A stretch of 31,554 nucleotides of DNA from a virus, in IMG/VR virus record IMGVR_UViG_3300006854_000041, positions 1 through 31,554 of that record; one strand, written 5' to 3'. Shown here piece after piece: positions 1,171 to 25,459 of this stretch (within the stretch, counting starts at the first letter, position 1; every line of letters begins with the position of its first letter). A program made the position numbers and the translations under genes. A model generated the notes under the pieces. The model did not search any database and was not told where the DNA came from. It was given only the letters and a program-made list of their open reading frames with translations.

Positions 1171-1368
1171 ATGAAATTCAGACCATCCTTGAAGCCACAG
1201 AACCTCAGCAAGAACGCTTGGTATTATGAAGGGTTTAGCGGGATCTCGGTCATCCAATGGGTCGATTCAAATAATGCTCGACACGCTTCGATAACCAAAA
1301 TTCCCTGGTGTAAGATCCTAAAATCGTGGGGCCGTTGTCGGCGGACTAAGCGAAAGGCAAAGGGATGA
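1171..1368 (+). CDS. Small basic protein of unknown function
   Basis: A 65-residue basic protein with a Lys/Arg-rich C-terminal tail (RCRRTKRKAKG). It has no recognisable motif beyond a cluster of aromatic residues in the middle. Its stop overlaps the ATG of the LuxR-type gene (ATGA), which supports translation as a pair. It begins 42 bases after the PP-loop gene. Confidence 0.5.
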   Translation: MKFRPSLKPQNLSKNAWYYEGFSGISVIQWVDSNNARHASITKIPWCKILKSWGRCRRTKRKAKG

Positions 1369-1592
1369 TCCGCGTCACCGACAAGGGACGTTGGTGGATG
1401 CTGACTCCTCATCAGCAGAGAATTTTCAAATCACTAGCCGGGGGTTTGAGCACCAAGGAAACTGCCTCCACGTGCTCTATTTCACGGAGCGCGGTCGAAA
1501 AACATCGTGACAGTATTTATCGCAAGACGGGCTGCCGAACCCATCTGGACATCTGCCGGATGGCGATACGGCTTGGGTTAATCGATCCTTAG
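1365..1592 (+). CDS. LuxR-type (GerE) helix-turn-helix DNA-binding protein
   Basis: A 75-residue stand-alone HTH domain. The order of elements matches the LuxR/GerE C-terminal domain: LTPHQQRIFKSLAGGLSTKE (13-32), then the recognition-helix segment ISRSAVEKHRDSIYRKTG (39-56), then a last helix ending in GLI. No receiver or ligand-binding domain is present, so it probably acts as a small phage transcription regulator, or as a sigma-region-4-like factor, whose structure is similar. Its start overlaps the upstream stop. The gene ends 15 bases inside the tail of the frameshifted extension of the convergent FN3 lipoprotein gene. Confidence 0.8.
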   Translation: MIRVTDKGRWWMLTPHQQRIFKSLAGGLSTKETASTCSISRSAVEKHRDSIYRKTGCRTHLDICRMAIRLGLIDP

Positions 1593-1715
1593 TTGGAAGA
1601 AGGATTCACCACCAGAGTTCGTCACCGTCAGAGTAACAAACCCAGGCACCGGGAACCACGGACCAGCCAAGTTCGTAGCCATCAGTGCGGTGAGTGTCCA
1701 GGTTTGGACGGTTGA
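1578..1715 (-). other. -1 frame C-terminal extension of the FN3 lipoprotein
   Basis: If ribosomes slip back one base after codon 142 of the lipoprotein, translation continues for 45 residues in the -1 frame to TAA at 1578-1580. The extension contains LMATNLAGPWFPVPGF and ends in GESFFQLRID, a beta-strand-rich sequence that reads as real protein. The full product would be 187 residues. The alternative is a one-base deletion in the T run, either real or a sequencing error. Confidence 0.55.
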
Positions 1716-2140
1716 AAAGGGAGATTGTAGAGCACCCCCGAGCTCTTGGTGGATTCCTTTCCGGTGGGACTCAGCGCGGTTGCAGCAAATAAGTAGGTTC
1801 CACTGGTGATGGTCACGCTGGCATTGGTGGTCGGGCTTGCCACAAAGTTCGTGTAGTTCCCCTGCGCCGGTCCCCAGTAAAGCCGGTAGCTTCCCGTGGG
1901 AGGTACGTTGTTAGTGTCGAACCACGCCCAGGTGATATTGGTGGAGATCGCCACCGGAACCGGCTTAGCCTTAGCCGCGGCGAGAGCTGGTAACTTTGGC
2001 GGCGCCACAGCCGGCGGCCGAGTCGCCGTAGAGCAGCCGCAAAGGATTGCCCCAAGTGCCAGCCACACGGCCAGCACCGATCCGAAACGTTGAGACGTGA
2101 AGTGAAAGATCGCCTGTGCAGGTTGGGGCAAAGTGATCAT
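1682..2140 (-). CDS. FN3-like lipoprotein (zero-frame product)
   Basis: A 152-residue exported lipoprotein. Residues 20-35 form a hydrophobic signal segment ending in a lipobox with the lipidated Cys at 36 (LCGC). A Pro/Ala-rich linker (41-62) follows, then a beta-sandwich segment resembling fibronectin type III/Ig (ITWAWFDTNN, SYRLYWGPAQGNYTNF, TYLFAATAL). The zero frame stops soon after this domain. A canonical -1 slippery heptamer lies at codons 140-142, and the -1 frame stays open for 45 more residues that look like natural protein, so a longer fusion product is likely. It follows the 61-aa minus gene with only three bases between them. Such domains in phages usually decorate virions; a lipoprotein could instead sit in the host envelope (lysis or exclusion). 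The role is unknown. Confidence 0.7.
   Translation of the reverse strand: MITLPQPAQAIFHFTSQRFGSVLAVWLALGAILCGCSTATRPPAVAPPKLPALAAAKAKPVPVAISTNITWAWFDTNNVPPTGSYRLYWGPAQGNYTNFVASPTTNASVTITSGTYLFAATALSPTGKESTKSSGVLYNLPFQPSKPGHSPH
1715..1721 (-). promoter_or_regulatory. Canonical -1 ribosomal frameshift heptamer
   Basis: On the minus strand the sequence is C CCT TTT in the zero frame, which fits X XXY YYZ with X=C and Y=T. Five bases further on, GTCC and GGAC can pair across a six-base loop; this is a weak hairpin at a normal spacing. The position next to an open, protein-like -1 frame is what makes it notable. Confidence 0.5.
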
Positions 2141-2143
2141 GGT

Positions 2144-2329
2144 TTACTTGTTGGACAGATTTCGGGACAGGAACCGTTCCACCGTCGCCTTCATGCCGTG
2201 CTCGACGGCCACGCGCAGGATATAAGGGATCGTCGGCACCATCTCGTTGCGCCGCTTCAATTCGTTCTGGATCGCCGCAAACTGCCGGTGGTGGGATGGA
2301 TCGACTTCAACCAGTTTTCTCTTTGCCAT
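2144..2329 (-). CDS. Small basic protein of unknown function
   Basis: A 61-residue, mostly helical, charged protein with no clear motif. The C-terminal half (VPTIPYILRVAVEHGMKATVERFL) looks like the second half of a small ribbon-helix-helix or antitoxin-type protein, but I cannot confirm this. It ends three bases before the lipoprotein ATG on the same strand. Its start is divergent from terminase, and it overlaps the longest terminase reading frame by 34 bases. Confidence 0.45.
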   Translation of the reverse strand: MAKRKLVEVDPSHHRQFAAIQNELKRRNEMVPTIPYILRVAVEHGMKATVERFLSRNLSNK

Positions 2330-4233
2330 GCCTCACTGTGCCAGCCATTGCAACATTCTGCAACATCGAAGTTGACGAAAACGATTCCGTGCCCCAGAGT
2401 CTCGCCGTGGCCGAAGCTGTTGCACGCCGAGAAAAGCCTCCCATTCTGGCTTATGGCCTGGATTGGGACCGAGCCGAGTTCCACGACACGCTAGAAATCG
2501 AGTTCTACATGATGCGGCAGGGCGGCTACGTCGTGTTCGACGGAAAACGCTACGGTGAAGGCCTTTTCTCACATTCCAAAACCGCGTTAACACTGCTTTG
2601 GCCGGATGAGGATCATCACAAGTGGTCGGACCTGATGCTCCACTCTCTATGCGAGGAGCGCATAACCGTAGTGCAAGGCGCCAAGGATACCGGAAAAACG
2701 CATATGATTTCTAAGTACGCGTTAATGGACTACTGGTTGGATCCAGAGAACACCCTTAGCCTTTGCACCTCGACAGGAATCCGGGAGCTGGAACTTAGAA
2801 TCTGGGGTGACATCAAGGATCTATTCCAGCAGGCTCGCTCGAGATACCCACATCTAGCGGGGAACGTGAACCACGCTGCGCACGGTATCTTCACCGATTC
2901 CCTCGACGAAAAAGGAAACGTGAGGGATTGGCGACGCGGCCTAATCTGTATTCCCTGCCTCGGCGGTGAGGGGGAATGGATTGGGCTGGAGCGTTTCGTA
3001 GGGCTGAAGCAGACGCGTCGGCGCCTGTGGGGTGATGAGTGCCAGTTTGTCCACTCGGTTTATGTCAACGTGCTAGATGCGTTCGACAAGGGCGACTTTA
3101 AGGGAGGGTTTTTGGGCAACCCAATTGGAGGCAATGGCAAGGCCTTGGATAAACTTGCCGAGCCGAAAGCCGGGTGGTCGAGCCTTGGAGAGATCACCAA
3201 GACCACCACTTGGAGAAATAAGTACGGCGGCATCACGATCAACCTCGTGGGCACCGATTCGCCTAACTTCGATCCAGATCGTCCGAAGTATTACAACTAT
3301 CTCCCCGACCAGGACGACGTTGATCGCGTAGCCAGCCGTAACGGCAAGGACTCTCCCCAGTTCTGGACCCTGATCATGGGCGTCCGGAAGATCGGAGCAG
3401 ATCTCTACCGCGTGCTCACGATCGAAATGTGCGAGCGCGAGGGCGCATTCAACACCGTTACCTGGGCTGGCGGTGAGACCACCAAGATATACGCCATTGA
3501 CGCCGGATTCGGTGGCGACCCGTGCGAAGTCGTGGACATCGAGTTCGGCGAGGATCACAACGGCGTCATGGTGATCAAGTTCTCGCCAACGCGCACCATC
3601 CCTATACGCATCAGCGCGGATGTTTCGGCCGAGGATCAGATCGCCCTCTACGTCAAAAGCGAATGCACGCGCCTGGGTGTGCCTGACGAGAACATTTTCT
3701 TCGACGCCGGCATGAGGGCCACGCTTCCGATCTCGATGTCTCGCATCATCTCCGCCCAGGTCAATGCCGTGAACTTCGGCGGGCCGGCGACTGATCGACC
3801 CGTCAACGAGGATACGTTCACGATCGACCCAAAGACCAAAGAGAAGCGGTTGATGAAGTGTTCGGAGCAGTACTCGAAGTTCGTTACGGAGCTTTGGTAC
3901 TCCGTGCGTGAACTGGTCGAGGCAGGTCAGGCCCGTGAACTTCCCAAGCCCGCCGCCGAGGAGTTTGCCTTGCGAGACTGGCGTTGGGTGCCCGGCCCAC
4001 TTGGCCAGCGTTACGAACTCGAAACCAAGCCCGAATACAAGGCGCGCAATCAGGAAAGCCCGAACAAAGCCGACGTGATTGCGATCGCCGTCGAGGGCGC
4101 GCGCCGACTCGGGTTTCAGATCCGAAACCCCAAGAAGTATCAGAACCCGGAACAAAAGGACGATCAATGGTTGGAGCGCGAGTTGCTGAAGTACCGGGCG
4201 TTTGTTAAAAAGAGCGAGCTTAGCTATCGATGA
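2296..4233 (+). CDS. terL: Terminase large subunit (packaging ATPase-nuclease)
   Basis: A 645-residue protein that cuts and pumps phage DNA into the prohead. The ATPase half has a Walker A loop GAKDTGKT (128-135), a Walker B RRLWGDE (242-248, catalytic Glu 248) and a GNP coupling motif (274-276). The nuclease half shows the RNase H-fold acidic triad: YAIDAGFG (Asp 402), IFFDAGM (Asp 470) and SPNKADVIAIA (Asp 593). The length is typical. The start is uncertain: ATG at 2296 overlaps the divergent minus gene, whereas GTG at 2338 would remove the overlap and still begin well before the ATPase. No small terminase subunit is obvious next to it; the HTH gene at 1365 is a weak candidate. The next gene overlaps its stop (ATGA). 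Confidence 0.93.
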   Translation: MDRLQPVFSLPCLTVPAIATFCNIEVDENDSVPQSLAVAEAVARREKPPILAYGLDWDRAEFHDTLEIEFYMMRQGGYVVFDGKRYGEGLFSHSKTALTLLWPDEDHHKWSDLMLHSLCEERITVVQGAKDTGKTHMISKYALMDYWLDPENTLSLCTSTGIRELELRIWGDIKDLFQQARSRYPHLAGNVNHAAHGIFTDSLDEKGNVRDWRRGLICIPCLGGEGEWIGLERFVGLKQTRRRLWGDECQFVHSVYVNVLDAFDKGDFKGGFLGNPIGGNGKALDKLAEPKAGWSSLGEITKTTTWRNKYGGITINLVGTDSPNFDPDRPKYYNYLPDQDDVDRVASRNGKDSPQFWTLIMGVRKIGADLYRVLTIEMCEREGAFNTVTWAGGETTKIYAIDAGFGGDPCEVVDIEFGEDHNGVMVIKFSPTRTIPIRISADVSAEDQIALYVKSECTRLGVPDENIFFDAGMRATLPISMSRIISAQVNAVNFGGPATDRPVNEDTFTIDPKTKEKRLMKCSEQYSKFVTELWYSVRELVEAGQARELPKPAAEEFALRDWRWVPGPLGQRYELETKPEYKARNQESPNKADVIAIAVEGARRLGFQIRNPKKYQNPEQKDDQWLERELLKYRAFVKKSELSYR

Positions 4234-5245: not shown

Positions 5246-5816
5246 ATCAAAACACCAGATTCAAGTACGTCGAGACTGGCAAAAACGAAACAAGGCCAAG
5301 CTAGTGGAAATCAGAAAGCGGCACTACTACAAACACATTGAGAAATGTAGAAAACAGGCCCTAGACAGTTATTATAAATATCGTGAGAAAAACGGCCCAA
5401 AAAGGCGTGAAAGAGATAGGAAACTTAACAAAAAACGGAGGGAAATAAAAAGGAAATATAATAAACAATACTACCAAGAGCACAAAGAACGCCTTTTGGA
5501 ATACCAGAGAAATTATGCTGTCAGAAACCCACATATCAGGGCCAAGAACGATGCTAAACGAAGGGGAGCGATTGTTGGCTGCCCGCATGTCGGAAGGGTC
5601 ATTAGGTTGTGGAGATCCCAAAAAACATTCACGTGCTTCTATTGCCGTAAAAGCTTTTCCAGAAAACATCTTCACGTTGACCATGTGACTCCGATAGCCA
5701 TAGGCGGGAAACACTCAGTCGATAATATTTGCAAAGCGTGTCCGTCCTGCAACCACACAAAATGCGCGACACCAGTTGGAAAATTCGTTACGCAAGGCCA
5801 ACGCTTGCTGATCTAG
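5133..5816 (+). CDS. HNH homing-type endonuclease (probably frameshifted 5' end)
   Basis: A 227-residue reading frame whose C-terminal 60 residues form a zinc-containing HNH nuclease. It has CFYC (168-171), the catalytic HVDH (181-184), Asn 198 in DNIC and the second Cys pair CPSC (203-206). Residues 40-125 are very basic and helical, as expected for DNA contact. The stretch is noticeably A-rich compared with the genes around it, a sign of recent transfer. The first 35-40 residues in this frame look unnatural; the likely N-terminus is in the 5129 frame. The gene ends one base into the start codon of the next glycosyltransferase gene. Such enzymes cut a site in a related genome and spread themselves. 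Confidence 0.8.
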   Translation: MLQSGNISLASENVEVELGLHPKPLQLEEMRNLEADLKSKHQIQVRRDWQKRNKAKLVEIRKRHYYKHIEKCRKQALDSYYKYREKNGPKRRERDRKLNKKRREIKRKYNKQYYQEHKERLLEYQRNYAVRNPHIRAKNDAKRRGAIVGCPHVGRVIRLWRSQKTFTCFYCRKSFSRKHLHVDHVTPIAIGGKHSVDNICKACPSCNHTKCATPVGKFVTQGQRLLI

Positions 5817-6520
5817 TGCGGATCGTCCTAGCCTACATCTGCGTCACCGAAGGCGTCATCAGTGCGGACTTCGCTGCTCGGTTCGTGGGGAGCTATCTCG
5901 CGTGCCCTCCGGAGGCTGAGCACAAGACGGTGATCGTGTGCAACGGCGGGCCTCTACGCCGGGAGTTGTCCCTGCTGTTCGACCCGCTTGCACCAGCCTA
6001 CCTGCCGCGCGTGAACGATGGCGGTTGGGATCTGAGCGCGTACCTAGACGTGGCGCACAAAATCCCGTGCGACATGCTCGTGTGCCTGGGTGAGTCGGTT
6101 TACTTCCATCGTCCTAGGTGGCTCAGGCGCATGGTGCAAGCCTGGGAGAAATACGGACCAGGCTTATACGGTTTCTGGGCCAGTAATCTCGTGAGACCCC
6201 ATCTCAACACCACCGCTTTTGTGTGCGACCCAAATGATCTGAAAACCTTCATGCCGCCGACAAACCGCAAGGAAAGGTACGAAGCAGAGCACGGCCAGAA
6301 CTCCTGGTGGCGCACCCTGCAGTTCCGAGGCAAGCCGACGATGCTGGTCACTTGGGATGGCGTGTGGCAGCCAATGCAGTGGCGCACGCCGAGGGACATC
6401 CTCTGGCGAGGATCGCAGACGAACACGCTGGCGTACTGCACGCACACGGACCGCTACAACGCGGCGGATACTAAAACCAAGGCCAAGTGGGCTAGGGCGG
6501 CTGATGCTCCGTATCGATGA
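5816..6520 (+). CDS. Glycosyltransferase-like protein, paralogue 1
   Basis: A 234-residue protein starting at GTG 5816, overlapping the HNH stop. I chose this start because the product then aligns from its first residue with the paralogue at 7350. Both run from a short N-terminal strand through TVIVCNGG/LIIVSNGG and GWDLSAY/GWDIGAM to DMLVCLGESVYFHRPRWLRRM/EMMVFFGTTAYLRGPHWLKRM. The Rossmann-like start and the GWD motif fit a GT-A glycosyltransferase fold of the kind used in surface polysaccharide synthesis. A longer frame reaches back to 5729 but lies inside the HNH gene. Sugar donor and acceptor are unknown. Its stop overlaps the next methyltransferase ATG. Confidence 0.6.
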   Translation: MRIVLAYICVTEGVISADFAARFVGSYLACPPEAEHKTVIVCNGGPLRRELSLLFDPLAPAYLPRVNDGGWDLSAYLDVAHKIPCDMLVCLGESVYFHRPRWLRRMVQAWEKYGPGLYGFWASNLVRPHLNTTAFVCDPNDLKTFMPPTNRKERYEAEHGQNSWWRTLQFRGKPTMLVTWDGVWQPMQWRTPRDILWRGSQTNTLAYCTHTDRYNAADTKTKAKWARAADAPYR

Positions 6521-7353
6521 ACAAACCATTGGCCATCGACCTTTTCTGCGGACTCGGCGGCTGGACTGAAGGGTTGCTCGCCGAAGGCTACGACGTTACC
6601 GGCTTCGACATCGAGGCGCACGATTACGGCGACGGCAAACGCTACCCTGCGAAGCTAGTAATTCGCGACGTGCTGACTATTCACGGCAGCGAGCTCAAAG
6701 ACGCCGCGCTCATCGTGGCCAGTCCACCGTGCCAGGAGTTTTCCTATATGGCCATGCCGTGGAGCCGGGCTAAAGCCATCGCCGCCGAATACCGCAGCGG
6801 CCAGCGTGACGCGAAGAAGCTCACCGCGCTTTTCGACGCCTGCTTCCGCATCCAACGCGAGGCCATTGAAGCGGCTGGCCATCACATTCCGATTGTTGTG
6901 GAGAACGTCCGCGGTGCTCAGCCTTGGGTTGGTCGCTCCAAGTGGAACTTTGGCAGCTACTACCTTTGGGGCGACGTGCCGGCGTTGATGCCTATTACAA
7001 TGCGGTTTAAGTCGCAAGGGATGAACTGGTCAGACCGAACCAAGCACGGCCAGGATTTCACGCGGATTGCTGGTCGGCAAGCCGAGGGATTAAAACTCCC
7101 TCGCAACGGCCACCGCCACACGCGGCACCTGACGAATCAAGCCGAGCACGGAACAAAGTTTTCCCAAAGCGGCGATGCTTGGTTCGATGGAACGCCGCGC
7201 GATGCGAATGGTCAAAAAGGACCAAGCGCGTTGAGCAGCAAAAGCAAATCCCGCAAAGCCGCCTCCGCAGAGATTGCGCGGATTCCGTTCGCGCTCGCGT
7301 CTTGGATTGCGAGCGTTTATCGACCTAAGATGGAATTATCCGAAGCGCGATGA
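6517..7353 (+). CDS. DNA (cytosine-5) methyltransferase
   Basis: A 278-residue C5-cytosine methyltransferase. Motif I DLFCGLGG (8-15) binds S-adenosylmethionine; motif IV SPPCQEFSY (69-77) carries the catalytic Cys 72; motif VI is ENVRG (129-133). A C-terminal segment IPFALASWIASVY (about 262-274) fits motif X. It is shorter than typical bacterial enzymes and has only a small region for target recognition, which is common in phage versions. No restriction enzyme is adjacent, so it most likely protects phage DNA from host restriction. Both ends overlap neighbouring genes by four bases. Confidence 0.9.
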   Translation: MNKPLAIDLFCGLGGWTEGLLAEGYDVTGFDIEAHDYGDGKRYPAKLVIRDVLTIHGSELKDAALIVASPPCQEFSYMAMPWSRAKAIAAEYRSGQRDAKKLTALFDACFRIQREAIEAAGHHIPIVVENVRGAQPWVGRSKWNFGSYYLWGDVPALMPITMRFKSQGMNWSDRTKHGQDFTRIAGRQAEGLKLPRNGHRHTRHLTNQAEHGTKFSQSGDAWFDGTPRDANGQKGPSALSSKSKSRKAASAEIARIPFALASWIASVYRPKMELSEAR

Positions 7354-8033
7354 ACACGATCTGCACCTACGTCTTTCCCGTCGCTGACGGCCGCCATTAC
7401 GAGGACGCGGTGAGGTTCGTGGCGTCGTACAACCTGCGTCCAGCCGGCGCCGATCACCGGCTGATCATCGTGTCCAACGGCGGCCAACCCACATTCGAGA
7501 TGCGTTGCCTGCTCGAACAACTCAACCATCCCTATGAGGTGTTCGTTCACGACAACACGGGCTGGGATATAGGAGCCATGCAGGCCGCAGCCCGTAACTA
7601 CCCGGCCGAGATGATGGTTTTCTTCGGCACGACGGCGTATCTGCGCGGACCGCACTGGCTCAAGCGCATGGAGGATGCGTTCAAGACTCGCGGCCATCAA
7701 TGTCTCTACGGCTCGACGGCGAACCAGGGTGACGCGCGCGTGAACGTCACGCCGCACATACGCACGACAGGATTTTGGTGCTCGCCTGCGCTGATGAACA
7801 TGTACCCCAACCGAGTGACGGATCCTAGCCAGAGATACCCTTTCGAGCATGGAGTCCTTGGGTTCACGCAATGGTGTCGCAACCAAGGTTACGGCGTCTA
7901 CATGGTGACATGGGATGCCGAGGTGGAGTTTCCGCACTGGGATGCGATACCGAACGGGTTCCATCAAGGCGACCAGAGTTCTCTGATCGTGGGAGATAGG
8001 CTCACGCGGGTTCCATACGGGTGCGATCCATGA
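7350..8033 (+). CDS. Glycosyltransferase-like protein, paralogue 2
   Basis: A 227-residue protein clearly related to the gene at 5816 over its full length. Shared elements are IIVSNGG (residues 40-46), DNTGWDIGA, MMVFFGTTAYLRGPHWLKRM and a later MVTWD that matches MLVTWD of the paralogue. These fit a GT-A-like fold; I see no clear DxD, so metal binding is uncertain. It sits between the two DNA methyltransferases with four-base overlaps on both sides. Candidate roles are synthesis of a virion or host-surface glycan, or glycosylation of a modified base; the sequence does not decide. Confidence 0.6.
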   Translation: MNTICTYVFPVADGRHYEDAVRFVASYNLRPAGADHRLIIVSNGGQPTFEMRCLLEQLNHPYEVFVHDNTGWDIGAMQAAARNYPAEMMVFFGTTAYLRGPHWLKRMEDAFKTRGHQCLYGSTANQGDARVNVTPHIRTTGFWCSPALMNMYPNRVTDPSQRYPFEHGVLGFTQWCRNQGYGVYMVTWDAEVEFPHWDAIPNGFHQGDQSSLIVGDRLTRVPYGCDP

Positions 8034-13242: not shown

Positions 13243-15543
13243 ATGCGTTTTGACAATGCCAGCAAAGTGGAAGAATGCGTGTGGAACATGCGCCTCGCGG
13301 ATCTTCCTCGCGACGAGAACCGGACGATCATTAATCAGCTCTTTAACGGAGATCCGCCGCTAGACGAGGCTTTGGCAGAGGAAAATAACGTAGAGATCAA
13401 TCGCAATGACTTGGAAGGTCCGATCCTGATGAGCAACGCCCGTCGCCAGTGGAACCAGGCGATGTTGGGGGCAGAGAATTTTTTCACCGTCACTCTGGAC
13501 TCCGGACCACCGGCCAAACGCCGGGAGTGGGGGCATATCATCACGCGAGAGATCAATCGTCGGCTAAAGAAAACTCGTCGCCAACTTGAGGAGAAACGTG
13601 CGACTGGAGGCACAACGCTGTTGCACGGTCGCGGTGCCTCGACCTGGAACACCCGGCGATCGGTGATTCCGGTTCCATTGGGAATGCCGAGCGTGCTCAT
13701 CCCAAGTGAGACCGATCTGGACTTCGAGAACCTCGCTTACTTCTCCATTTTCCGAGAGTGGACACCGAGCCAGCTTTACACTATGACCCATGGCCCAAAG
13801 GTGGATCCGGGTTGGGATATGGAATTGGTGATGAGTCAGCTTCGGTATGTGGCCGAGCAAGTGACCAAGCAGCCGAACGCCACGGCTTTTCAGTACATGC
13901 CAGAGCGCATCGAGGAGTTGATTAAGCAGGACATGGGATTCTGGGGCAGTGACGCTGTTCCTACCGTTGACGTGTGGGATTTCTTCTTCCGGGAGGCAGA
14001 GGAGGATGGGAAAGGCTGGTATCGCCGAACTATTCTCGACTGGGGTGTGACGGACAGCGTAGCCCGAACATTCAAGAGCAAACCCGATCACTCCAACAAG
14101 GACGCCGACGGGAAATTCCTCTACACGTCGAAGAACCGGAAGTACGCCAACTCGATCAACGAGATCATTCAATGCCAATGGGCGGACTGCTCGGCGGTGT
14201 TCCCTCAAAAGGTGCATTCGGTGCGTTCCTACGGCTGGCTGCTCTGGGGCGTGTGCGATCTTCAAAACCGGCTTCACTGCAAGTTTAACGAAGCGGTGTT
14301 CCAACAACTCATGTGGTTCTTCCGGGTGCCTAGCAACGAACAGTTCACACGGCTTAAGATGGCCAACTTCGCGCACATGGGTGTCATCCCTCCTGGTATT
14401 GAGTGGGTGAAGGCGCAAGACCGCTATGCCCCGCCTTTGCCGCTGGTGGAGTACGCCTTCACACGCAACCGCGGACTGATGAACGAAAGCTCGACAGCTT
14501 ATTCCCAGGATTTCACGCGCCAGAATCAGGGCAAGGAAATGACGGCGACCGAGACCATGGCGATTGTCAACGCCTCGAACGCTCTGATCGGCGGGTTTCT
14601 CACACAGGCCTACGATTACGAGGATTTCAAGCACCAGGAACAGTGCCGGAGGATCCTGATCAAGAACAACCCGGACACCATCGCTAAAGAGTCGATCAGG
14701 GCGATCTTGAAAAAGGGCGTGCCAGAACAGATGCTCGACATAGATCGTTGGATCGTCCAGACCGAGCGCGTCATCGGCGCCGGAAACAAGCAACTCGCCA
14801 TGGGTCAGGTGCAATTCTTGCAGGGAGTGAGGAAGAACCTGGGTCCGTCGCAACAGCGCAAGATCGATCACATCTCGATCGAGACCGCCCTCGACGATCC
14901 GGCTTTGGCTGAGGAACTCGCCCCGGTCGATGGTCAAAAGACGGCCAGCAACTCGATGCACGACGCACAACTATCCACCGAACGTCTCATGCGTGGACTA
15001 CCGTTGGCTCCGCGCGATGAAATGGTGTACGAAGATTACGTGAAGGTCTGGATCGCTGACCTGGAACTGATGGTCAACCAGACCGAGCAAACCGGTGGCA
15101 TGGCTTCTCCGTCCGACATCCGTGGCTGGAACACCATGATCGAGCAGACCAAGAGCTTCCTCAAAATCATGGCCGGGAACGATGAGGACAAACAGAAGGT
15201 CAAAGCCTACGCCGATCGGCTAAAGGTGGTGGGCAACTTGGTGAAGGCGTTTGAGCAACGGTTTATGCAGATGGCGGAGAAGCAGCAGAAACAGAACGGG
15301 CAGGCTGCACCGGATCCGAAGATTGCCGCCCAAGTGCAGGGCAAGATGGCTCTGGATGCCGTGAAGGCTAGGAACATGGAAACCAGTCACGCGCAGCGTA
15401 CAGCTCAGAAGCAAGTGCAGTTTGAACAGAAGTTACAGCAGGATGAGCGGCGCACCAACGCCGAGATCCGGCTGGAGAACGCCAAGGCCGCTCATGAGCT
15501 TGTGCGCGGGAACCTCAAAGCCTTTAACGAACCGACTGAATAA
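13243..15543 (+). CDS. Portal protein
   Basis: A 766-residue soluble protein between the packaging gene and the scaffold/capsid genes, the usual place of the dodecameric portal. It has a mixed alpha/beta body, a region FREWTPSQLYTMTHGP (about 167-182) and a long helical, Lys/Gln-rich C-terminus (about 650-766) like the barrel or crown of long portals. A weak GGGAG-type ribosome site (gaagggag) lies 13-20 bases before the ATG. The call rests on size, position and general character rather than on a catalytic motif. The 46-base gap before it is the largest break in the preceding 11 kb of + strand genes and may hold a start of transcription. Confidence 0.8.
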   Translation: MRFDNASKVEECVWNMRLADLPRDENRTIINQLFNGDPPLDEALAEENNVEINRNDLEGPILMSNARRQWNQAMLGAENFFTVTLDSGPPAKRREWGHIITREINRRLKKTRRQLEEKRATGGTTLLHGRGASTWNTRRSVIPVPLGMPSVLIPSETDLDFENLAYFSIFREWTPSQLYTMTHGPKVDPGWDMELVMSQLRYVAEQVTKQPNATAFQYMPERIEELIKQDMGFWGSDAVPTVDVWDFFFREAEEDGKGWYRRTILDWGVTDSVARTFKSKPDHSNKDADGKFLYTSKNRKYANSINEIIQCQWADCSAVFPQKVHSVRSYGWLLWGVCDLQNRLHCKFNEAVFQQLMWFFRVPSNEQFTRLKMANFAHMGVIPPGIEWVKAQDRYAPPLPLVEYAFTRNRGLMNESSTAYSQDFTRQNQGKEMTATETMAIVNASNALIGGFLTQAYDYEDFKHQEQCRRILIKNNPDTIAKESIRAILKKGVPEQMLDIDRWIVQTERVIGAGNKQLAMGQVQFLQGVRKNLGPSQQRKIDHISIETALDDPALAEELAPVDGQKTASNSMHDAQLSTERLMRGLPLAPRDEMVYEDYVKVWIADLELMVNQTEQTGGMASPSDIRGWNTMIEQTKSFLKIMAGNDEDKQKVKAYADRLKVVGNLVKAFEQRFMQMAEKQQKQNGQAAPDPKIAAQVQGKMALDAVKARNMETSHAQRTAQKQVQFEQKLQQDERRTNAEIRLENAKAAHELVRGNLKAFNEPTE

Positions 15544-18221: not shown

Positions 18222-19496
18222 ATGCCTACAGCACCACCACCAGCACCAGCCAAACCCGCCGCTATAGCCCCTACTCCTTCCGCACCGGCGCCAGCGCCGA
18301 AGCCAGCACCAACACCGCGTCCAGTAGTCGTCCCCAAGGAAAAACCACCCGAGGATTACATGGGTGACGCCGCCGCTGAGCTGGACGCGCTAGCCGCTGA
18401 CGAACCACCACCTAAGCCAGCAGCCAAACCCAAGGCGACAGCTAAGCCTGGAGAGGAACCTCCGAAACCTGCCTCGGTTGCCAAACCCGGCGATAAGCCC
18501 GCTGAGGCTACCCCGCCGGCCGCTGACCCTGACGAGCCGGTGAAGATCAACGATCTCCGCACCACCTACCGCGAACTAAAGAAAAAGGTCCAAACTGAGT
18601 ACGAGCCTAAGCTGCAGCAAGTTGCCACGCTCGAAGCCCGCATCAAAGAACTCGAAGGCGCCAATCCGCCGGAAGTGAAGATCCTTCAGGAAAAGCTGAC
18701 GGCGGCCGAGTCGAGGCGGAATGAGCTTGAGGAAAAGGTGGCTCTGTTCGACTACCGGCAGACTTCTGAGTTCCTTGAGAAGCATCAAAAGCCTTACCTG
18801 CAACAGTGGGCGCGCGCTCGCAAAGACCTAGCGGAAATCTCCGTCGAGCTTCCGAACGGCGAGTCTCGTGTCGCCAACGATCAGGATCTTGTTGAACTTC
18901 TCAACCTTCCACTCGGCAGGGCACAGCTTGAGGCCAATAAGAAGTTTGGAGACCTTGCCGATGCCATGATGCGCCACCGCGAGAGAATCCTAGATCTCGT
19001 TGATAAGCAGGACGAAGCTGTTGCGGAGGCCACGAAGCGGGCGATGGAGAAAACCAAGCTGGATCCCGTCCAAGCCAAAGCCAACGCCGAGCGCGTCGCC
19101 AAGGACTGGACAGCGGCCAACACCGCGATCGTCGAGAAATGGCCTAAGATGTTCGGTAAGATAGACGATGACCCGGATGGCAACGCGCTACTCGAGAAGG
19201 GCCTAGCCTTAGCTGACCGACTGTTCTCCCCGACACCGGACACGCAGCCTAAGAACGAGGCGGAGGCCTTGCGCCTACACGCGATGATCCGCCAGAAGGT
19301 TGCCAACCACGATCGCCTTGCTCTGTGGCACAAAAGAGACCTCGCCACGATTGCTGAACTCCGAGCCGCGCTCGACGAGTACGAGAAATCGGATCCCAAC
19401 GGCGGCCTGGGTGGCGGACCTAGCGGCGGCGGTACTGGAGGGTTCCTTGAGGACGCCAACGCCGAACTTGATGCCCTCGACCGAAAGGGAACATGA
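18222..19496 (+). CDS. Scaffold-like head assembly protein
   Basis: A 424-residue low-complexity and coiled-coil protein. Residues 1-110 are dominated by Pro, Ala and Lys. About 115-280 is a long Glu/Lys/Leu-rich coiled coil (starting near TTYRELKKKVQTEYEPKLQQ). The C-terminus has a Gly-rich stretch and the acidic NAELDALDRKGT. An earlier AAAELDALAADE (about 49-60) echoes that end. This layout, upstream of the capsid gene, is typical of internal scaffolds that shape the prohead and are then removed. Alternatives are a minor virion protein. The stop overlaps the next ATG. Confidence 0.65.
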   Translation: MPTAPPPAPAKPAAIAPTPSAPAPAPKPAPTPRPVVVPKEKPPEDYMGDAAAELDALAADEPPPKPAAKPKATAKPGEEPPKPASVAKPGDKPAEATPPAADPDEPVKINDLRTTYRELKKKVQTEYEPKLQQVATLEARIKELEGANPPEVKILQEKLTAAESRRNELEEKVALFDYRQTSEFLEKHQKPYLQQWARARKDLAEISVELPNGESRVANDQDLVELLNLPLGRAQLEANKKFGDLADAMMRHRERILDLVDKQDEAVAEATKRAMEKTKLDPVQAKANAERVAKDWTAANTAIVEKWPKMFGKIDDDPDGNALLEKGLALADRLFSPTPDTQPKNEAEALRLHAMIRQKVANHDRLALWHKRDLATIAELRAALDEYEKSDPNGGLGGGPSGGGTGGFLEDANAELDALDRKGT

Positions 19497-19963
19497 ACCT
19501 CCGAAGTCTCAGCGCCAATCAACTCCTGAAGATTCTTAGGAAATTCCACAAGCGCGACCCGAGGCCGGCCGCCCAGGAATGGGCGCGACGCATTGAGAGC
19601 GGGCCGAAGAAGTCCTGCATCCCCAAGGCGAAGCTACGCCGGGCTGGGCTGATACCGAAGGTTGGTGATCTGGTGCAGGTAAAATCTCCGAAGTCTAAGG
19701 AGGAGTTTCCTGGGCTGATTGTATCTGACGGCGAGAGCTACTTTATGATCACTCGGCCTATCGAAACTGGCGAGGAGATAGGGGGAGAAGCTATCAATAA
19801 TGATCTACAAAACAAATGGTGGGCCGTGCGCTATCCGGACGGCAAAGTCAGGATCCCCATAGTTCTCTACCCAGAAAACACGTTCAAATGGTATCGAAGG
19901 GCGAAACATGCGAATCAAACCGTTGAAGGGAAAAGCCTTAATCCAACAGCTTCCGCCATCTGA
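19493..19963 (+). CDS. Hypothetical head-region protein
   Basis: A 156-residue basic protein. The first 60 residues are helical and Arg/Lys-rich; the rest seems to be a small beta-barrel-like domain (VGDLVQVKSPKSKEEFPGLI, then WWAVRYPDGKVRIPIVLYP). The ATG overlaps the scaffold stop, and the C-terminal 56 bases overlap the GroES gene in another frame. No family is recognised. Confidence 0.55.
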   Translation: MNLRSLSANQLLKILRKFHKRDPRPAAQEWARRIESGPKKSCIPKAKLRRAGLIPKVGDLVQVKSPKSKEEFPGLIVSDGESYFMITRPIETGEEIGGEAINNDLQNKWWAVRYPDGKVRIPIVLYPENTFKWYRRAKHANQTVEGKSLNPTASAI

Positions 19964-20222
19964 TAAAACCGATTCAGGATTATGGATTCCTGACGTTGCC
20001 AATGACACACCCCGTGGAGAAAAGGTCAAACCGATTCGAGGTCTCGTAAAAGAGATCGGTCCTTGGAGAACGGTGAAAAGTGGGCATTCGGTTATGCCTC
20101 ATATAAAAGTAGGAGACGAGGTGATCGCTACCGTTTACGGAGGTGTCAGGTTGGAGGATAGACTCGGAGATCGATTGCGCCTCGTGGATGTAGAAAGCAT
20201 TTTGGCGGTGATCGAGAGTTAA
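19908..20222 (+). CDS. GroES-like co-chaperonin
   Basis: A 104-residue protein matching Cpn10 in length and order. It starts IKPLKGKALIQQLPP (the usual PL-D-R-V-L-V strand), has the mobile-loop region SDKTDSGLWIP, then KPIRGLVKEIGP, KVGDEVIATVYGG and the C-terminal DVESILAVIE. GroES caps the GroEL folding chamber. Phages such as T4 (gp31) and others encode their own to fit large capsid proteins. Its place just before the capsid locus supports the same use. A purine-rich site (gaaggg) precedes the ATG by seven bases. No GroEL is present in the window, so it would work with host GroEL. Confidence 0.9.
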   Translation: MRIKPLKGKALIQQLPPSDKTDSGLWIPDVANDTPRGEKVKPIRGLVKEIGPWRTVKSGHSVMPHIKVGDEVIATVYGGVRLEDRLGDRLRLVDVESILAVIES

Positions 20223-20239
20223 CTCAATCACCGCCAAAA
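20200..20239. terminator. Long perfect hairpin at the 3' end of the pentamer array
   Basis: TTTTGGCGGTGAT (20200-20212) and ATCACCGCCAAAA (20227-20239) are a perfect 13-bp inverted repeat. The 14-base loop itself holds the 10-base palindrome GAGTTAACTC (20216-20225). It covers the GroES stop and the last pentamer of the minus-strand array. No T run follows on either strand, so it is not a classic rho-independent terminator. It could still end or protect transcripts arriving from both sides, or be a processing site. Confidence 0.6.
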
Positions 20240-20628
20240 CCACAGCGGTCCCAAACGTGCCCTACCGTTACCGACCGAACCCTAGACCACCAAGGCGAAC
20301 TCAATTAGTCCGGACCTAACCCTACCCGACCACGCCTTAGCGAACCTTTCCGAAACTAACCCGAGCAGACCGTGCCTATCCTAACCCTTCACAACCAGAC
20401 CTGACCAAACCGTGCCTGAGAGTACCCAAGCACAACATTGCGCACCCGACTACTCCTTGCCCGAGCCTGCCTTTCCCAATCATAGACTGCCTAACCGGCC
20501 TTTCGGCCCGAACCATACCGCACCGCGCCCCACATAACCGGACCGGAGCTTAGCGAACCAAGACTCTACCCGCCGCACAGCGTCCTACCAAGACCGAGCA
20601 CACCTGAACCCTCCATGCCACAGAGTAC
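20236..20628 (-). ncRNA. Degenerate GGTNN pentamer array, putative structured or guide-like RNA
   Basis: A 393-base stretch without an open frame. Read on the minus strand it has a strict five-base period. In block 1 (20628 to 20509) I count 21 of 24 pentamers with G at position 5; in block 2 (20495 to 20236), 44 of 52. Positions 1 and 2 are mostly G and T (about two thirds each), so the register gives GGTNN with two freely varying bases. The two blocks are separated by the 13-base hairpin segment at 20496-20508, which resets the phase by three bases. Some words recur (GGTTCGCTAAG twice, GGCACGG twice, GGGTACTCT twice), but the units are not copies of one another. A five-base period cannot be coding. 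It starts 25 bases after the stop of the RAMP-like gene on the same strand and is very likely part of the same transcript. It does not match any RNA family I know. Confidence 0.75.
20496..20510 (-). ncRNA. Central GAAA-tetraloop hairpin of the array
   Basis: On the minus strand the sequence is GGCC-GAAA-GGCC, a four-base GC stem closed by a GNRA tetraloop. The tetraloop forms only on the minus strand, which points to a minus-strand RNA. It lies between the two pentamer blocks. The 18 bases around it (20496-20513) recur exactly on the + strand in the capsid gene leader at 22650-22667. Confidence 0.65.
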
Positions 20629-20647
20629 CCTGGCTTTACGAGCCAGG
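20629..20647 (-). ncRNA. Hairpin between the RAMP-like gene and the array
   Basis: CCTGGCT (20629-20635) and AGCCAGG (20641-20647) pair perfectly across a five-base loop. It sits exactly between the stop of the RAMP-like gene and the first pentamer. There is no T run on the minus strand, so read-through into the array is expected. It may mark the 5' boundary of a processed RNA. Confidence 0.6.
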
Positions 20648-20652
20648 CCATG

Positions 20653-21282
20653 TTACAGATCGAGAATTTCAAACTTCACGACCTGAAATCTTCCAAACGT
20701 TGGACGAAAATCACCAACGCCAATCAGCTTACCAGCCTGCCCGATGACCTCGTTTAACAGTGTGGGAGAGACGTACTCCGGCAAGTTCACTTGAAGCTGG
20801 ATTGTCGCCGTCCAGCCAGCTTTGACCGCTGGCCGAGTTCTTGTGATGGCATTACGCTGGATGCACACCCTGCGTTTGTCCTCGTAGTCCCATTTTTTAA
20901 CTCCAAGTGATGCCAAGTTAGTGATCGACACCACGGCAGCTTTGAACAAGTCGGCCGCCGATTTTCTAGGACTGCGCGGATCCTGACGAAACTTCGCGGC
21001 GGCGATCAGGCTCATGCGTAGGTACTCTCCCGGGATGGCCAATTCACCTTTCTCGTTACGGTAAACGTAGCTCTCGATGTCGTCGGACTTTTTCGCAGCA
21101 CTGCCCTTCTTGGCCTTGCTCTTTTCTTCTACCGCCTCGCAATTCCACCGATGAAACAGGAGATCCGCACTTCCTTCGATCGTAACCTCTGCTATGTACG
21201 GTATCTCCATTTCTACCAGTTCTTTAGCTCCATTAGTTGGCGATTCCCCTCCAATTTCCGTCTGTCTTGATACTGCCTTCAT
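20653..21282 (-). CDS. Orphan RAMP/Cas7-like phage protein
   Basis: A 209-residue protein. I place the start at ATG 21282 because it has a good ribosome site (ggaaagg, 6 bases before) and because the extra 47 residues of the longest frame look unnatural. Elements in order: a strand AEVTIEGSADLLFHRW (31-46); a Lys-rich loop (52-66); YVYRNEKGELAIPGEYLRMSL (72-92); an Arg-rich helix segment FRQDPRSPRKSAADLFKA (98-115); TRTRPAVKAGW (147-157); a strand (158-168); and the Gly/Arg loop GVGDFRPTFGRF (188-199) before the last strand. I recognise this as a family common in phages but unannotated. The strand-helix order and the C-terminal Gly-rich loop recall RRM-fold RAMP proteins such as Cas7, which coat RNA at a regular spacing. 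That fold is inference. The neighbouring minus-strand pentamer array is its likely binding partner. No other Cas gene is present. Confidence 0.65.
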   Translation of the reverse strand: MKAVSRQTEIGGESPTNGAKELVEMEIPYIAEVTIEGSADLLFHRWNCEAVEEKSKAKKGSAAKKSDDIESYVYRNEKGELAIPGEYLRMSLIAAAKFRQDPRSPRKSAADLFKAAVVSITNLASLGVKKWDYEDKRRVCIQRNAITRTRPAVKAGWTATIQLQVNLPEYVSPTLLNEVIGQAGKLIGVGDFRPTFGRFQVVKFEILDL

Positions 21283-21495
21283 TGTGACCTTTCCACGCCC
21301 CAGCACGCCGCGCCTAAGCAAAGCCGATCCTGCCGCTTCGAAGCTCGCCGTGATTTGGGCAAGCACCCGCCCGCCGCGGTGTAGCCAACGCCGGGAGGCG
21401 TTGCCGACAACGAACGAGTGCAAAATGTTTGGTTTAACTTCATCCGGCTACAACGGACTGGTGCCATATTGACCTTAATCAGAATGGAAGGCAAG

Positions 21496-21523
21496 TTGAT
21501 TTCCTGAACTTTTCAGCGATACT
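21496..21523 (+). promoter_or_regulatory. Possible promoter with a dyad operator in the spacer
   Basis: TTGATT, a 16-base spacer, then GATACT fit a sigma-70 promoter moderately well. The spacer holds the inverted repeat CTGAA-CTT-TTCAG. Transcription would start near 21530 and reach the terminator at 21586, giving an RNA of about 57 bases. Confidence 0.35.
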
Positions 21524-21553
21524 CAGATCACTTCGTAGAAGTTTAGGATTGGT

Positions 21554-21586
21554 CCCCGCCGGTTACGAGTCCGGCGGGGTTTTTTA
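21554..21586 (+). terminator. Rho-independent terminator, + strand
   Basis: CCCCGCCGG (21554-21562) and CCGGCGGGG (21571-21579) form a perfect 9-bp GC-rich stem with an 8-base loop, followed directly by six T. It acts on the + strand only. It would stop either a short RNA from the promoter just upstream or read-through from the head genes across the minus-strand module. Confidence 0.9.
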
Positions 21587-21600
21587 TTTGGGCGGATGAG

Positions 21601-21762
21601 TTAGGCGGGGAAACCTTTTGCTTCGTCGGGAAATGCATCCACGTGGGCGAAAAGCTCCTTCATGATGTGGCGATCTACGTGCTCTCCAAATTTCTTTTGG
21701 TCTACGAACTTTCGACCGCATATAGGACATTTGATTGGTGACTTTTTAGGACTGGTTTTCAT
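21601..21762 (-). CDS. C2H2-type zinc-finger mini-protein
   Basis: A 53-residue protein read directly from the minus strand (ATG at 21762-21760, TAA at 21603-21601). After a basic start (MKTSPKKSPI) comes one classic C2H2 finger: CPIC (12-15), a 12-residue spacer KRF-type with Phe 19, then His 28 and His 32. The tail is acidic and Pro-containing. A single finger suggests a DNA-, RNA- or protein-binding adaptor. It lies 15 bases after the XRE gene on the same strand, so the two are probably one operon, with the RAMP-like gene further downstream. A purine-rich stretch (aaagaaag) lies 9-16 bases before the ATG. Confidence 0.7.
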   Translation of the reverse strand: MKTSPKKSPIKCPICGRKFVDQKKFGEHVDRHIMKELFAHVDAFPDEAKGFPA

Positions 21763-21777
21763 GTGTTGTTCTTTCTT

Positions 21778-21948
21778 TTATTGCGCCATGCGCCTCTTGA
21801 TTTCGGAAATGGATAATGCGTGCGGCACACTGTGGCCGGTCTCCCATCCTTCGTAAGTGCGGATATTCACCTCTAAGAACTCTGCGGCCTGCTTTTGAAG
21901 AAAACGTTTCGATCTTCTCCACTTTTTCAATTCAGTTTTGAATTTCAT
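21778..21948 (-). CDS. XRE/Cro-type repressor-like protein
   Basis: A 56-residue HTH protein starting at ATG 21948. The helix-turn-helix runs through LQKQAAEFLEVNIRTYEGWE (17-36), the form seen in Cro/C1-type and short antitoxin-like regulators. The longer frame to 22008 would cross the promoter region and overlap the divergent gene, so I reject it. The -10 box ends six bases before the ATG, so the message may be nearly leaderless. A perfect 11-base dyad lies inside the promoter, which suggests autorepression. Confidence 0.8.
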   Translation of the reverse strand: MKFKTELKKWRRSKRFLQKQAAEFLEVNIRTYEGWETGHSVPHALSISEIKRRMAQ

Positions 21949-21950
21949 AC

Positions 21951-21982
21951 TTGAACTATACTCGCAACTTGCGTAGTGTAAA
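21951..21982. promoter_or_regulatory. Overlapping divergent promoters with a shared operator
   Basis: Minus strand: TTTACA (21982-21977), 16 bases, TATAGT (21960-21955), reading into the XRE gene. Plus strand: TTGAAC (21951-21956), 17 bases, TAGTGT (21974-21979), reading into the HNH gene. The dyad CGCAA-C-TTGCG (21963-21973) lies in the spacer of both, so one bound dimer would block both. Confidence 0.65.
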
Positions 21983-21987
21983 GTTAA

Positions 21988-22626
21988 ATGAGCATCGAGA
22001 GCAAGCACGCATATCGGTTTGGGTATCTAAAATCAGAAAAGTGGAAGGGTGTCCGATTGGAAGCCTTGGTAAGAGAGAAGGCTAAGTGCCAGATTTGTGG
22101 AGACGAGTCGATTTCTAATGACGCTCATCATGTCTGGTATCCTGAATCGATTTGGGAGACTACCGAGAAGCACCTAGTGGTCCTCTGTAGGGGGTGCCAC
22201 GAGTTTGTTCACGCAATGCTGCCTGAGTGTAAGACTGACGATGAAGAAAAGGGGAGGACTCAGTGGATCAAGCTAAGGAATGCCATTCTCGCGTGGCGGC
22301 AGGACAAACAACCTCTGTTTAAGAATTACCCAGATATTCAGGAGGCATCCGACAAACTCACAACGGTAAAGAGTTTGCGGGACGCGTACTTGTCGTTGAA
22401 GGCTGAGTATAAAGAACAGGCCAAAGTTATCGAGGATTATCAAAAACGGCTGCTTATACAGATGACCAACGGCACACCAATTCCAGAAACCAATCCCACT
22501 ATGCAAATTGACCATGAGGAACAAGTAAACATGGTTCTTGGGTTGGTGGAAAAGTGGGCAACCTCTTATCATCGTCACGCAACTTGCGGTAAAAAGAAAG
22601 TTGAACCGAAAAAGAATCGCTCGTAG
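21988..22626 (+). CDS. HNH endonuclease-like protein
   Basis: A 212-residue protein. The N-terminal 80 residues form a zinc-type HNH domain: CQIC (34-37), DAHHVWYP (45-52, with the catalytic His pair), LCRGCHEFVH (66-75, second Cys pair and last His). Residues about 85-200 are helical and charged, without a known domain. The layout fits HNH proteins of phages that act as homing or packaging nucleases; packaging-type enzymes usually sit next to terminase, which is not so here. The base composition is A-rich. It is divergent from the XRE gene and shares its operator. Confidence 0.8.
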   Translation: MSIESKHAYRFGYLKSEKWKGVRLEALVREKAKCQICGDESISNDAHHVWYPESIWETTEKHLVVLCRGCHEFVHAMLPECKTDDEEKGRTQWIKLRNAILAWRQDKQPLFKNYPDIQEASDKLTTVKSLRDAYLSLKAEYKEQAKVIEDYQKRLLIQMTNGTPIPETNPTMQIDHEEQVNMVLGLVEKWATSYHRHATCGKKKVEPKKNRS

Positions 22627-22864
22627 ATAGCTGACAGTGGCGTGAATTTGTTCGGGCCGAAAGGCCGCCACCCGAACCCCTGGTTCCTGAGTCTCCAGCT
22701 AAAAGCAACTCCGGTTCCCGAAGCCCGTCACAATTCGGTTCGTAGGTCTGGAGGACCACGCGCAGCGTTCGAGACACGCGCAGATACACAGCAGGAGAAT
22801 TGCTGGCTGGCGTGTGCCCCCTCAATCGATCCCCTGCCAATTCCATAAGAGAAAGTTTTTAGAA
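22627..22864 (+). other. Structured leader of the major capsid gene
   Basis: A 238-base gene-free stretch. GTTCGGG (22650-22656) pairs with CCCGAAC (22671-22677) around CC-GAAA-GG, giving a tetraloop-capped stem with a six-base bulge. Further elements are GGTC/GACC (near 22746-22757), two ACGCGCAG copies and CAGCA/TGCTG (22789-22805). The first hairpin contains the 18 bases shared with the array hairpin. No promoter stands out. The last 20 bases before the ATG are A/T-rich (agagaaagtttttagaa). Confidence 0.55.
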
Positions 22865-24412
22865 ATGGCCCTTACATGCCGTTCGTTCACAGATTTTTTA
22901 AGCCGCCGATCCGAGCACTTAGATGATGAAATCATCCGTGCGATGCACCCCATCGACACGTGGATCGGCCACGTTTCGATTGGAAGATTCGCCGCGCAAG
23001 ATGGCGTCGAACATACTTTCGACCGCTTTGAAAATGTGTTTCCAGACCTCCGAGGCGCCTGGGAAGATGTAACCGCCGCATCCTGCGTCGGTCAACCCTG
23101 CGATCCGTCGAGCACCAAGATCGGCTTGGGCTTCACGCGCGACAGCTACAAGCTGCAACGCAAGGCCTACGAGACTGATCTGTTCTGCTTCGACCAGATC
23201 CTTTCGGCGGACCGCGCCAAGCAACAGTTCGCGCACGTCATTCGCGTTAATCGCCGGGCTTCGACGTTGATCACGTCGCATCGGATGCGCACCGAAGCGA
23301 TCCGGATCGCCAAGTACAAATGGGCGACGGCGAACAACTCGCTGGTGCCGATTACAGCGGTGTGGGATTCGACGATGACGTTTTTGACGATCTCGACGAT
23401 GCCCACGTCGAAGATCACGGCGCGGCACCTGCAACGCCGGGTGCAGCCGCAGATCCGCGAAGGCGCGCTCTCCGAGGACATCAATCGATCCACGCAACCC
23501 ATGCTTGAGTTCGTCACCGACATGGATGAAGTGTGGAACATGGTCGAGGGCAACCCCGAGTTGACCGACCACTGGCGGTTTACCGATTTCGTGGATGCCG
23601 AGAAGTACCACAAGTACGGCTGGGTTGGGAAACTGGGCAACTACGGCCTGCGCGCCGATTGGACTGCGCTGCGGTTCAACAAGGTGTCCACTTCTGCCGC
23701 CGGCACTGTGCTGCAGATCGTTTACCCTTACACGAACGTCGCTGCGACCGAGGGCATCAAGGAAATCGTCAACACCGACTACGACAACGCCCAGGTGCAG
23801 GCGGACTTCATCTGGCACCGCATGGCGATGACTTCGCTCGTGCGCGACACGACAGCGATCAACCCGGAAATGCCGTTTGCCATGCGCGACTTCGCCGGCA
23901 AGTGGCAGTTCGTCATGGACAACCTCACGTGCGGCCTTGATGTAAACGGCAACCCGATCGCCGTGGACAACGCCCGGCGCAACAAGGGCAAGTTCATCGC
24001 CGACTTCAGCTACGCCACCCAGGCGCAGTATCCCGAACTCGCCGAGGTGTTCTTCCACCTGCGCGAGCCTGCCTGCATCGTGGACGTGCCGAACTGCGCG
24101 AATGACCCAGGATACCCGGCCCAGAACTACAACTCAGCCAATGCGCTGTGCCCGAGTTCAACCGTGGTCCTCACGTTCTTGCCAGTGCTCAACGCGGCGA
24201 CTGGGACGTACGAAGTGCCTCGTGACTCGATCCTGTGCAACGGCTTGAACATCCTCAACGATCCTTTGACCGGCACGAGCACACTGACCGCGCTGGTCGC
24301 CCAAATGAACACGGTCCTTGCGGCGATGGGAACTTGGGCCGTCTCTGGATCGAACATTACCCTCACAGGCGCCGTTTGCCAGAGTGTCAACATACCCTGG
24401 ACGGTTGACTAA
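22865..24412 (+). CDS. Major capsid protein (candidate)
   Basis: A 515-residue soluble protein from ATG 22865 (a longer frame to 22814 lies in the structured leader). It is placed after scaffold and GroES and before small virion genes, as a capsid gene should be. It has mixed alpha/beta content with no signal peptide and no catalytic motif. Its N-terminal third contains DRFENVFPDLRGAWEDV and several Cys residues (for example CVGQPCD), and its C-terminal 100 residues look like a separate beta domain. The GC content and codon use are strongly biased (many GTC, CTC, AAG), as in highly expressed genes. The call rests on context, size and composition; I see no family signature. Confidence 0.7.
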   Translation: MALTCRSFTDFLSRRSEHLDDEIIRAMHPIDTWIGHVSIGRFAAQDGVEHTFDRFENVFPDLRGAWEDVTAASCVGQPCDPSSTKIGLGFTRDSYKLQRKAYETDLFCFDQILSADRAKQQFAHVIRVNRRASTLITSHRMRTEAIRIAKYKWATANNSLVPITAVWDSTMTFLTISTMPTSKITARHLQRRVQPQIREGALSEDINRSTQPMLEFVTDMDEVWNMVEGNPELTDHWRFTDFVDAEKYHKYGWVGKLGNYGLRADWTALRFNKVSTSAAGTVLQIVYPYTNVAATEGIKEIVNTDYDNAQVQADFIWHRMAMTSLVRDTTAINPEMPFAMRDFAGKWQFVMDNLTCGLDVNGNPIAVDNARRNKGKFIADFSYATQAQYPELAEVFFHLREPACIVDVPNCANDPGYPAQNYNSANALCPSSTVVLTFLPVLNAATGTYEVPRDSILCNGLNILNDPLTGTSTLTALVAQMNTVLAAMGTWAVSGSNITLTGAVCQSVNIPWTVD

Positions 24413-24431
24413 GAGACTTCGGTGGTTGGTG

Positions 24432-24467
24432 GCCTCCCCGTGTGGTGGCGGGGAGGCAACTTTATTT
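24432..24467 (+). terminator. Hairpin after the capsid gene, partial terminator
   Basis: GCCTCCCCG (24432-24440) and CGGGGAGGC (24449-24457) form a perfect 9-bp stem with an 8-base loop. It is followed by aactttattt, a weak T tract. It would reduce, rather than stop, transcription past the capsid gene and may protect the capsid message. It also overlaps the leader of the next gene and offers GGGAGG 14-19 bases before its ATG. Confidence 0.65.
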
Positions 24468-24469
24468 CT

Positions 24470-24814
24470 ATGAAAATGCAAGATCACGAAGATGAAATGT
24501 CGTCGCTGTACGGTTCGGACGAACACGAAGGCAACGACGAAGGAAAGTCCCCGCCCAAGTCTGTGGACGAGGAGATGGATGACAGTAACACGGCGGTCGC
24601 GCCGGTGAAGGTCTTGCAGGGGAAAGGCGGCGAACCGCTGAAGGAAGGCGACGAAGTGGTCGTGAAGATCGTCAAGGTTTACGGCGATCAAGCCGAGTTC
24701 TCATACTCGAACACGAAGCCGAGTGAAATCGGAGGAGGTGGCGAGGAGGACTACGGCAAGGAGATTGACGCCATGGACAAAGCTGGCGGGAACCCGGGCG
24801 GCATGGGATACTAA
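24470..24814 (+). CDS. Acidic protein, possible capsid accessory
   Basis: A 114-residue, very acidic protein from ATG 24470; the longer frame to 24422 crosses the hairpin. The first 45 residues are Glu/Asp/Ser-rich and probably disordered. Residues 50-80 (VLQGKGGEPLKEGDEVVVKIVKVYGDQ) look like a small beta barrel. The tail is Gly-rich. Its place behind the capsid gene suggests a decoration or head-completion protein. Confidence 0.5.
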   Translation: MKMQDHEDEMSSLYGSDEHEGNDEGKSPPKSVDEEMDDSNTAVAPVKVLQGKGGEPLKEGDEVVVKIVKVYGDQAEFSYSNTKPSEIGGGGEEDYGKEIDAMDKAGGNPGGMGY

Positions 24815-24838
24815 CCAACAGAAAGGCAAATTTGACGT

Positions 24839-25219: not shown

Positions 25220-25222
25220 GCC

Positions 25223-25453
25223 GTGGCAATTTCTTGCGACCCAGCGAGTTTGGTGGCAGCCGCACGCTGCATGGAGTGCGTGCCGCGAGAAATGCAAGTG
25301 CCAGTGGAACTCTACCTGTTGGCTACGGCGTCTGGGGGCAGCACTGACCCAGCGACACTGGTTGCCGCGGCCAAGTGCTTCAAATGCCTGACGACGGATG
25401 AGCGTGAATGGGTGAGGCTATATCTTCTATGCCTCCTGGCCGGTGGAACATGA
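25223..25453 (+). CDS. Small virion protein made of two Cys-pair modules
   Basis: A 76-residue protein from GTG 25223, three bases after the previous stop. It is almost entirely two copies of one module: DPASLVAAARCMECVPREM (6-24) running on to YLLA, and DPATLVAAAKCFKCLTTDE (42-60) running on to YLLCLLAGG. Each has an x-L-V-A-A-A-[RK]-C-x-x-C core and a following helix. This makes it a duplication of the N-terminal unit of its neighbours. No strong ribosome site is visible. Confidence 0.6.
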   Translation: MAISCDPASLVAAARCMECVPREMQVPVELYLLATASGGSTDPATLVAAAKCFKCLTTDEREWVRLYLLCLLAGGT

Positions 25454-25459
25454 AACGCC

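Follow-up and report, generated by a model that had tools for sequence, protein, structure and literature searches.

A predicted phage lipoprotein gene is split between two reading frames, with a complete FN3 domain in the zero frame and a C-terminal protein module beyond it in the -1 frame. The gene lies on the minus strand of IMG/VR virus record IMGVR_UViG_3300006854_000041, and by the window we mean the whole analysed stretch of 31,554 bases. The original prediction read the split as a programmed -1 frameshift and offered a one-base deletion as an equally good explanation. It was right to offer the latter. Relatives of the gene carry FN3 and module in one frame. On balance we think that an ordinary gene for FN3 plus module has probably gained or lost one base, whether by mutation or by sequencing or assembly error, and we place this cause of the split ahead of programmed -1 frameshifting.

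Translation of the window places the zero frame between an ATG at 2138-2140 and a TGA at 1682-1684 (Table 1). The CCT and TTT of the C CCT TTT heptamer are codons 141 and 142, its leading C is the last base of codon 140. Counting on from the TTT, the 11th codon is the zero-frame stop. A slip of -1 at the heptamer leads into 45 sense codons (1715-1581) followed by a TAA at 1578-1580. These counts agree with the original prediction, which left the strand unstated. The product is a predicted exported lipoprotein, judged by eye from a hydrophobic stretch followed by LCGC. The stop codon of the 61-aa ORF sits 3 nt before the lipoprotein ATG on the same strand, an adjacency from which we regard a shared transcript as probable. 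At the other end of the gene, the 3' end of the LuxR-type HTH gene overlaps the end of the -1 frame extension.

Table 1. Features of the lipoprotein locus (window coordinates)
Feature	Position	Strand	Remarks
Zero-frame ORF	1682..2140	-	152 aa; signal/lipobox region, linker, FN3 domain and a 10-residue non-homologous tail past the heptamer
Putative signal peptide, lipobox-like LCGC (Cys36)	2033..2140	-	Read by eye from the translation
FN3 domain, approximate bounds	1718..1945	-	Alignment with relatives; Pfam fn3 in relatives
SD-like GGGGG run, upstream of heptamer	1735..1739	-	Published spacing 6-17 nt (PMC4066793)
C CCT TTT heptamer	1715..1721 (read 1721-1715)	-	In phase with the zero frame
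-1 frame extension, Verrucomicrobiota C-terminal module	1578..1715	-	45 codons + TAA
Convergent LuxR/GerE-type HTH gene	1365..1592	+	Pfam GerE 37.2 bits
Small ORF directly upstream of the lipoprotein gene	2144..2329	-	61 aa; adjacency only

A codon-usage scan finds the best switch from the zero to the -1 frame at 1714-1709, immediately past the heptamer, with the -1 and +1 frames of the extension being indistinguishable by codon usage alone. The homology boundary matches this position, in that FN3 similarity stops before LPF and the module begins at about TVQTW. The break thus falls in the linker between two modules.

Relatives of the gene were reached through the capsid protein, with which 78 related IMG/VR loci were identified, as well as one contig from a Pedosphaera sp. 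MAG. Together these point to a Verrucomicrobiota host for the phage. About 20 lipoprotein homologues are present in the related records. The FN3 part of the original prediction is supported through these relatives, one of which (L097) scores 33.3 bits against Pfam fn3 (cut-off 25), while the window lipoprotein itself matched no family in family-profile searches. In nine phage records (G001, G003, G031, G035, G043, G045, G046, G048 and G073) and four host proteins (L126, L128, L131 and L134) the FN3 domain is followed by the tail module in a single frame. A structure model of one relative (L104) has a mean pLDDT of 70.7 and no significant PDB match. Other relatives (L097, L098 and L092) consist of FN3 only and terminate in a hydrophobic strand. 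The zero-frame tail of the window gene, QPSKPGHSPH, has no such strand and resembles no relative. We found no relative whose module is out of frame with FN3, and in all of those checked the linker between FN3 and module lacks an in-phase heptamer. That the relatives are single-frame with heptamer-free linkers argues for a break in an ordinary two-part gene and not for a conserved recoding site. The comparison of the site among related phages that the original prediction proposed has thus yielded single-frame relatives and conservation of the heptamer in none of those checked. An uninterrupted frame in relatives, which it named as the observation that would count against frameshifting, is seen only in distant relatives, and no close relative was found.

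The arrangement of the two parts varies elsewhere in the family. The module precedes FN3 in G005, G006 and G007 (L111, L086/L101 and L087/L102, respectively), and in G072 (L099/L119) module and FN3 are encoded by separate adjacent genes, both of which have a signal-like start. From its sequences the lipoprotein family looks modular and shuffled. Searches of annotated phages gave no relatives of the lipoprotein, terminase or portal, and searches of viral contigs gave none of the lipoprotein, the terminase, the 61-aa ORF or the phosphoadenosine phosphosulfate (PAPS) reductase-like gene. A literature search on FN3 lipoproteins of Verrucomicrobia phages returned nothing relevant.

Judged by its homologues, the extension is a genuine protein segment and not a chance open frame. 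A search of 384 Verrucomicrobiae genomes with the extension gave 16 matches in 11 genomes, all of them the C-terminal 40-50 residues of open frames that are mostly large. The matches follow the pattern ATN(L/V)xGPWxxVxGa...F(F/Y)R(L/I)R and each terminates within a few residues of the motif, defining a module common to the C-termini of many exported Verrucomicrobiota proteins. A profile of this module matches the -1 frame ORF at E=9.6e-11 and the 45 aa alone at E=1.1e-11, the extension reaching 39.9 bits against 11 bits for the best of 2000 shuffles, although these scores are partly circular because the profile was built from sequences found using the extension itself. The circularity is eased by the matches of the same profile to the in-frame phage tails of G031 (3e-7), G003 (5e-5) and G073 (8e-4), which are independent of the window. 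No other window ORF gives a significant match. The earlier description of the extension as natural-looking, beta-rich protein was right. Profiles built from divergent phage homologues gave no significant match to the extension. In the window gene the C-terminal W...F[FY]R module is thus confined to the -1 frame, where its motif reads FFQLR.

These observations place the gene in a family that encodes small exported (lipo)proteins in Verrucomicrobiota phages, composed of a signal peptide, an FN3 domain and a C-terminal W...FF/YR module, which the relatives show to be normally encoded in one frame. Insertion or deletion of one base at or near the CCCTTTT run would leave the module in the -1 frame. 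If the change is a true mutation, the gene would yield mainly a truncated protein retaining the complete FN3 domain, perhaps with a trace of full-length product through slippage at the run. We favour the indel because FN3 and tail share a frame in the nine phage records and several host proteins, and because the module profile recognises both the -1 segment of the window and the in-frame tails of G031, G003 and G073. It is further favoured by the lack of a conserved heptamer, the dissimilarity of QPSKPGHSPH to the relatives and the ordinary folding of the downstream sequence (48% of random gene positions fold equally well; z lies between -1.3 and -2.5 for different stretches). Likewise, a survey of reading-frame transitions (GeneTack) attributed singletons with in-frame relatives mainly to sequencing errors or indels, and found indels to be enriched near 3' ends (PMC3711429).

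Against the indel stand the coincidence of the break with an in-phase heptamer of an efficient class, the SD-like run, the domain boundary and the -1 direction. In-phase X_XXY_YYZ heptamers number 34 in 8903 window codons, and at this rate the chance of an accidental one in the 12-16 codon junction is ~5-6%. The quality of the assembly also weighs against it, as does the failure of a gapped exact-match scan to find a near-identical record across the slip site at any run length, and hence an intact copy. Comparison with relatives revealed no other sense-strand frame break in the record. In addition, the 12,282 bases at window 19273-31554 are identical without a gap to a second record (G012, IMGVR_UViG_3300007076_000027), an overlap that does not include the slip site and that joins two assemblies which may not be independent. 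The assembly therefore looks accurate, and the chance of an assembly error is lowered but still present. The second record runs ~17 kb past the end of the window, so the window is a partial genome.

The main alternative, which we consider possible but less likely than the indel, is programmed -1 frameshifting at C CCT TTT, with most ribosomes stopping after FN3 and a minority adding the C-terminal module. The heptamer is in phase, lies within the overlap of the two frames and belongs to the H_HH.U_UU.Y class, one of the most efficient in E. coli; with no stimulator present, C_CC.U_UU.U still gives a shift of more than 0.10% (PMC4066793). The upstream GGGGG matches the published GGNGG pattern within 6-17 nt (PMC4066793). 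Its calculated pairing with the anti-SD exceeds that at every other one of the 34 in-phase heptamers and ranks in the top 0.8% among random gene positions. SD-like motifs of the published pattern set are nevertheless found upstream of 20% of in-phase positions in the window. The codon-usage switch and the domain boundary both coincide with the site, and the FN3-only relatives make a short product plausible. In-frame relatives are themselves compatible with frameshifting, because the Ig-like domains of phages are encoded in frame in certain cases and reached by a frameshift in others (PMC5009743). Against programming, the heptamer is conserved in none of the relatives checked (close ones were not found), the downstream structure is not unusual, and the carrier does not seem to be a structural protein of the virion. 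The two proposed products are predictions from sequence. Were the programming real, ribosomes that stay in the zero frame would make a lipoprotein with its FN3 domain complete, and those that shift would add the module, perhaps with some role at the host surface. Tentatively, then, an internal SD-like sequence may aid the -1 shift to give a minority form of the exported FN3 lipoprotein with an extra module. Of the original prediction, the in-phase efficient heptamer and an SD-like run at accepted spacing are in its favour, and the single-frame relatives with heptamer-free linkers are not.

It is very improbable that the zero-frame stop is the true end of the gene and the -1 segment a chance open frame or a disused remnant, as the FN3-only relatives and the null result with the divergent phage profiles might suggest, given that the Verrucomicrobiota module profile matches the extension at 1e-11 and no other window ORF, and that the zero-frame tail is without the hydrophobic strand that closes the FN3-only relatives.

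The window probably belongs to an uncharacterised lineage of Verrucomicrobiota phages with dozens of IMG/VR relatives. Proteins of 645 aa (2296-4233), 766 aa (13243-15543) and 532 aa (22814-24412) are taken as terminase, portal and capsid, respectively, on the basis of size, order and sequence impression and not of a family match. None of the three matches a PHROG, and no annotated phage record has a match to the terminase or portal candidate. A phosphoadenosine phosphosulfate reductase-like gene at 277-1128 (PHROG 424, E=5e-31) adjoins the LuxR-type HTH gene, and a collagen-like protein with G-x-Q/N repeats at 28257-29492 matches phage tail fibre families. The genes at 5729-6520 and 7350-8033 form a paralogous pair, similar via shared relatives, whose members recur close together in many related phages.

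Should the break be an indel or an error, the result is of use for annotation, in that it restores the actual domain composition of a phage lipoprotein family about which little is known and shows a plausible-looking slippery site to be non-conserved. If frameshifting were true, the gene would represent an unusual controlled addition of a domain to a phage surface lipoprotein. Domains appended by frameshifting would then be known beyond virion proteins, on a lipoprotein of the cell surface, and the in-frame and FN3-only relatives would serve as natural controls.

Among known systems, the window gene resembles the singleton transitions of the GeneTack survey (PMC3711429) in being a single case with in-frame relatives and a break near the 3' end of the gene, but it differs from them in that its break coincides with a slippery heptamer of an efficient class, preceded by an SD-like run. 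The likeness to frameshift-appended phage Ig-like and FN3 domains, as in the T3 capsid, Lactobacillus phage A2 and SPP1 gp17.1* (PMC5009743, PMC9022992), is looser than originally stated. In common with these cases, a beta-rich C-terminal segment follows a slip-prone site at a domain boundary and lies in a different frame. However, those are virion structural proteins whose products have been shown, whereas the window protein is a predicted lipoprotein known from sequence alone. Moreover, its FN3 domain lies upstream of the slip site, unlike the appended domains; SPP1, for example, adds an FN3 domain by a +1 shift (gp17.1*; PMC9022992). The FN3-plus-module proteins of Verrucomicrobiota phages (G031/L104, G003/L100 and G001/L088) and hosts (L131 and L134) share with the window gene a putative signal peptide, the FN3 domain and a short beta-rich tail with a conserved W and F[FY]R motif at the C-terminus; they are encoded in a single frame, whereas the tail of the window gene is in the -1 frame and carries the motif FFQLR.
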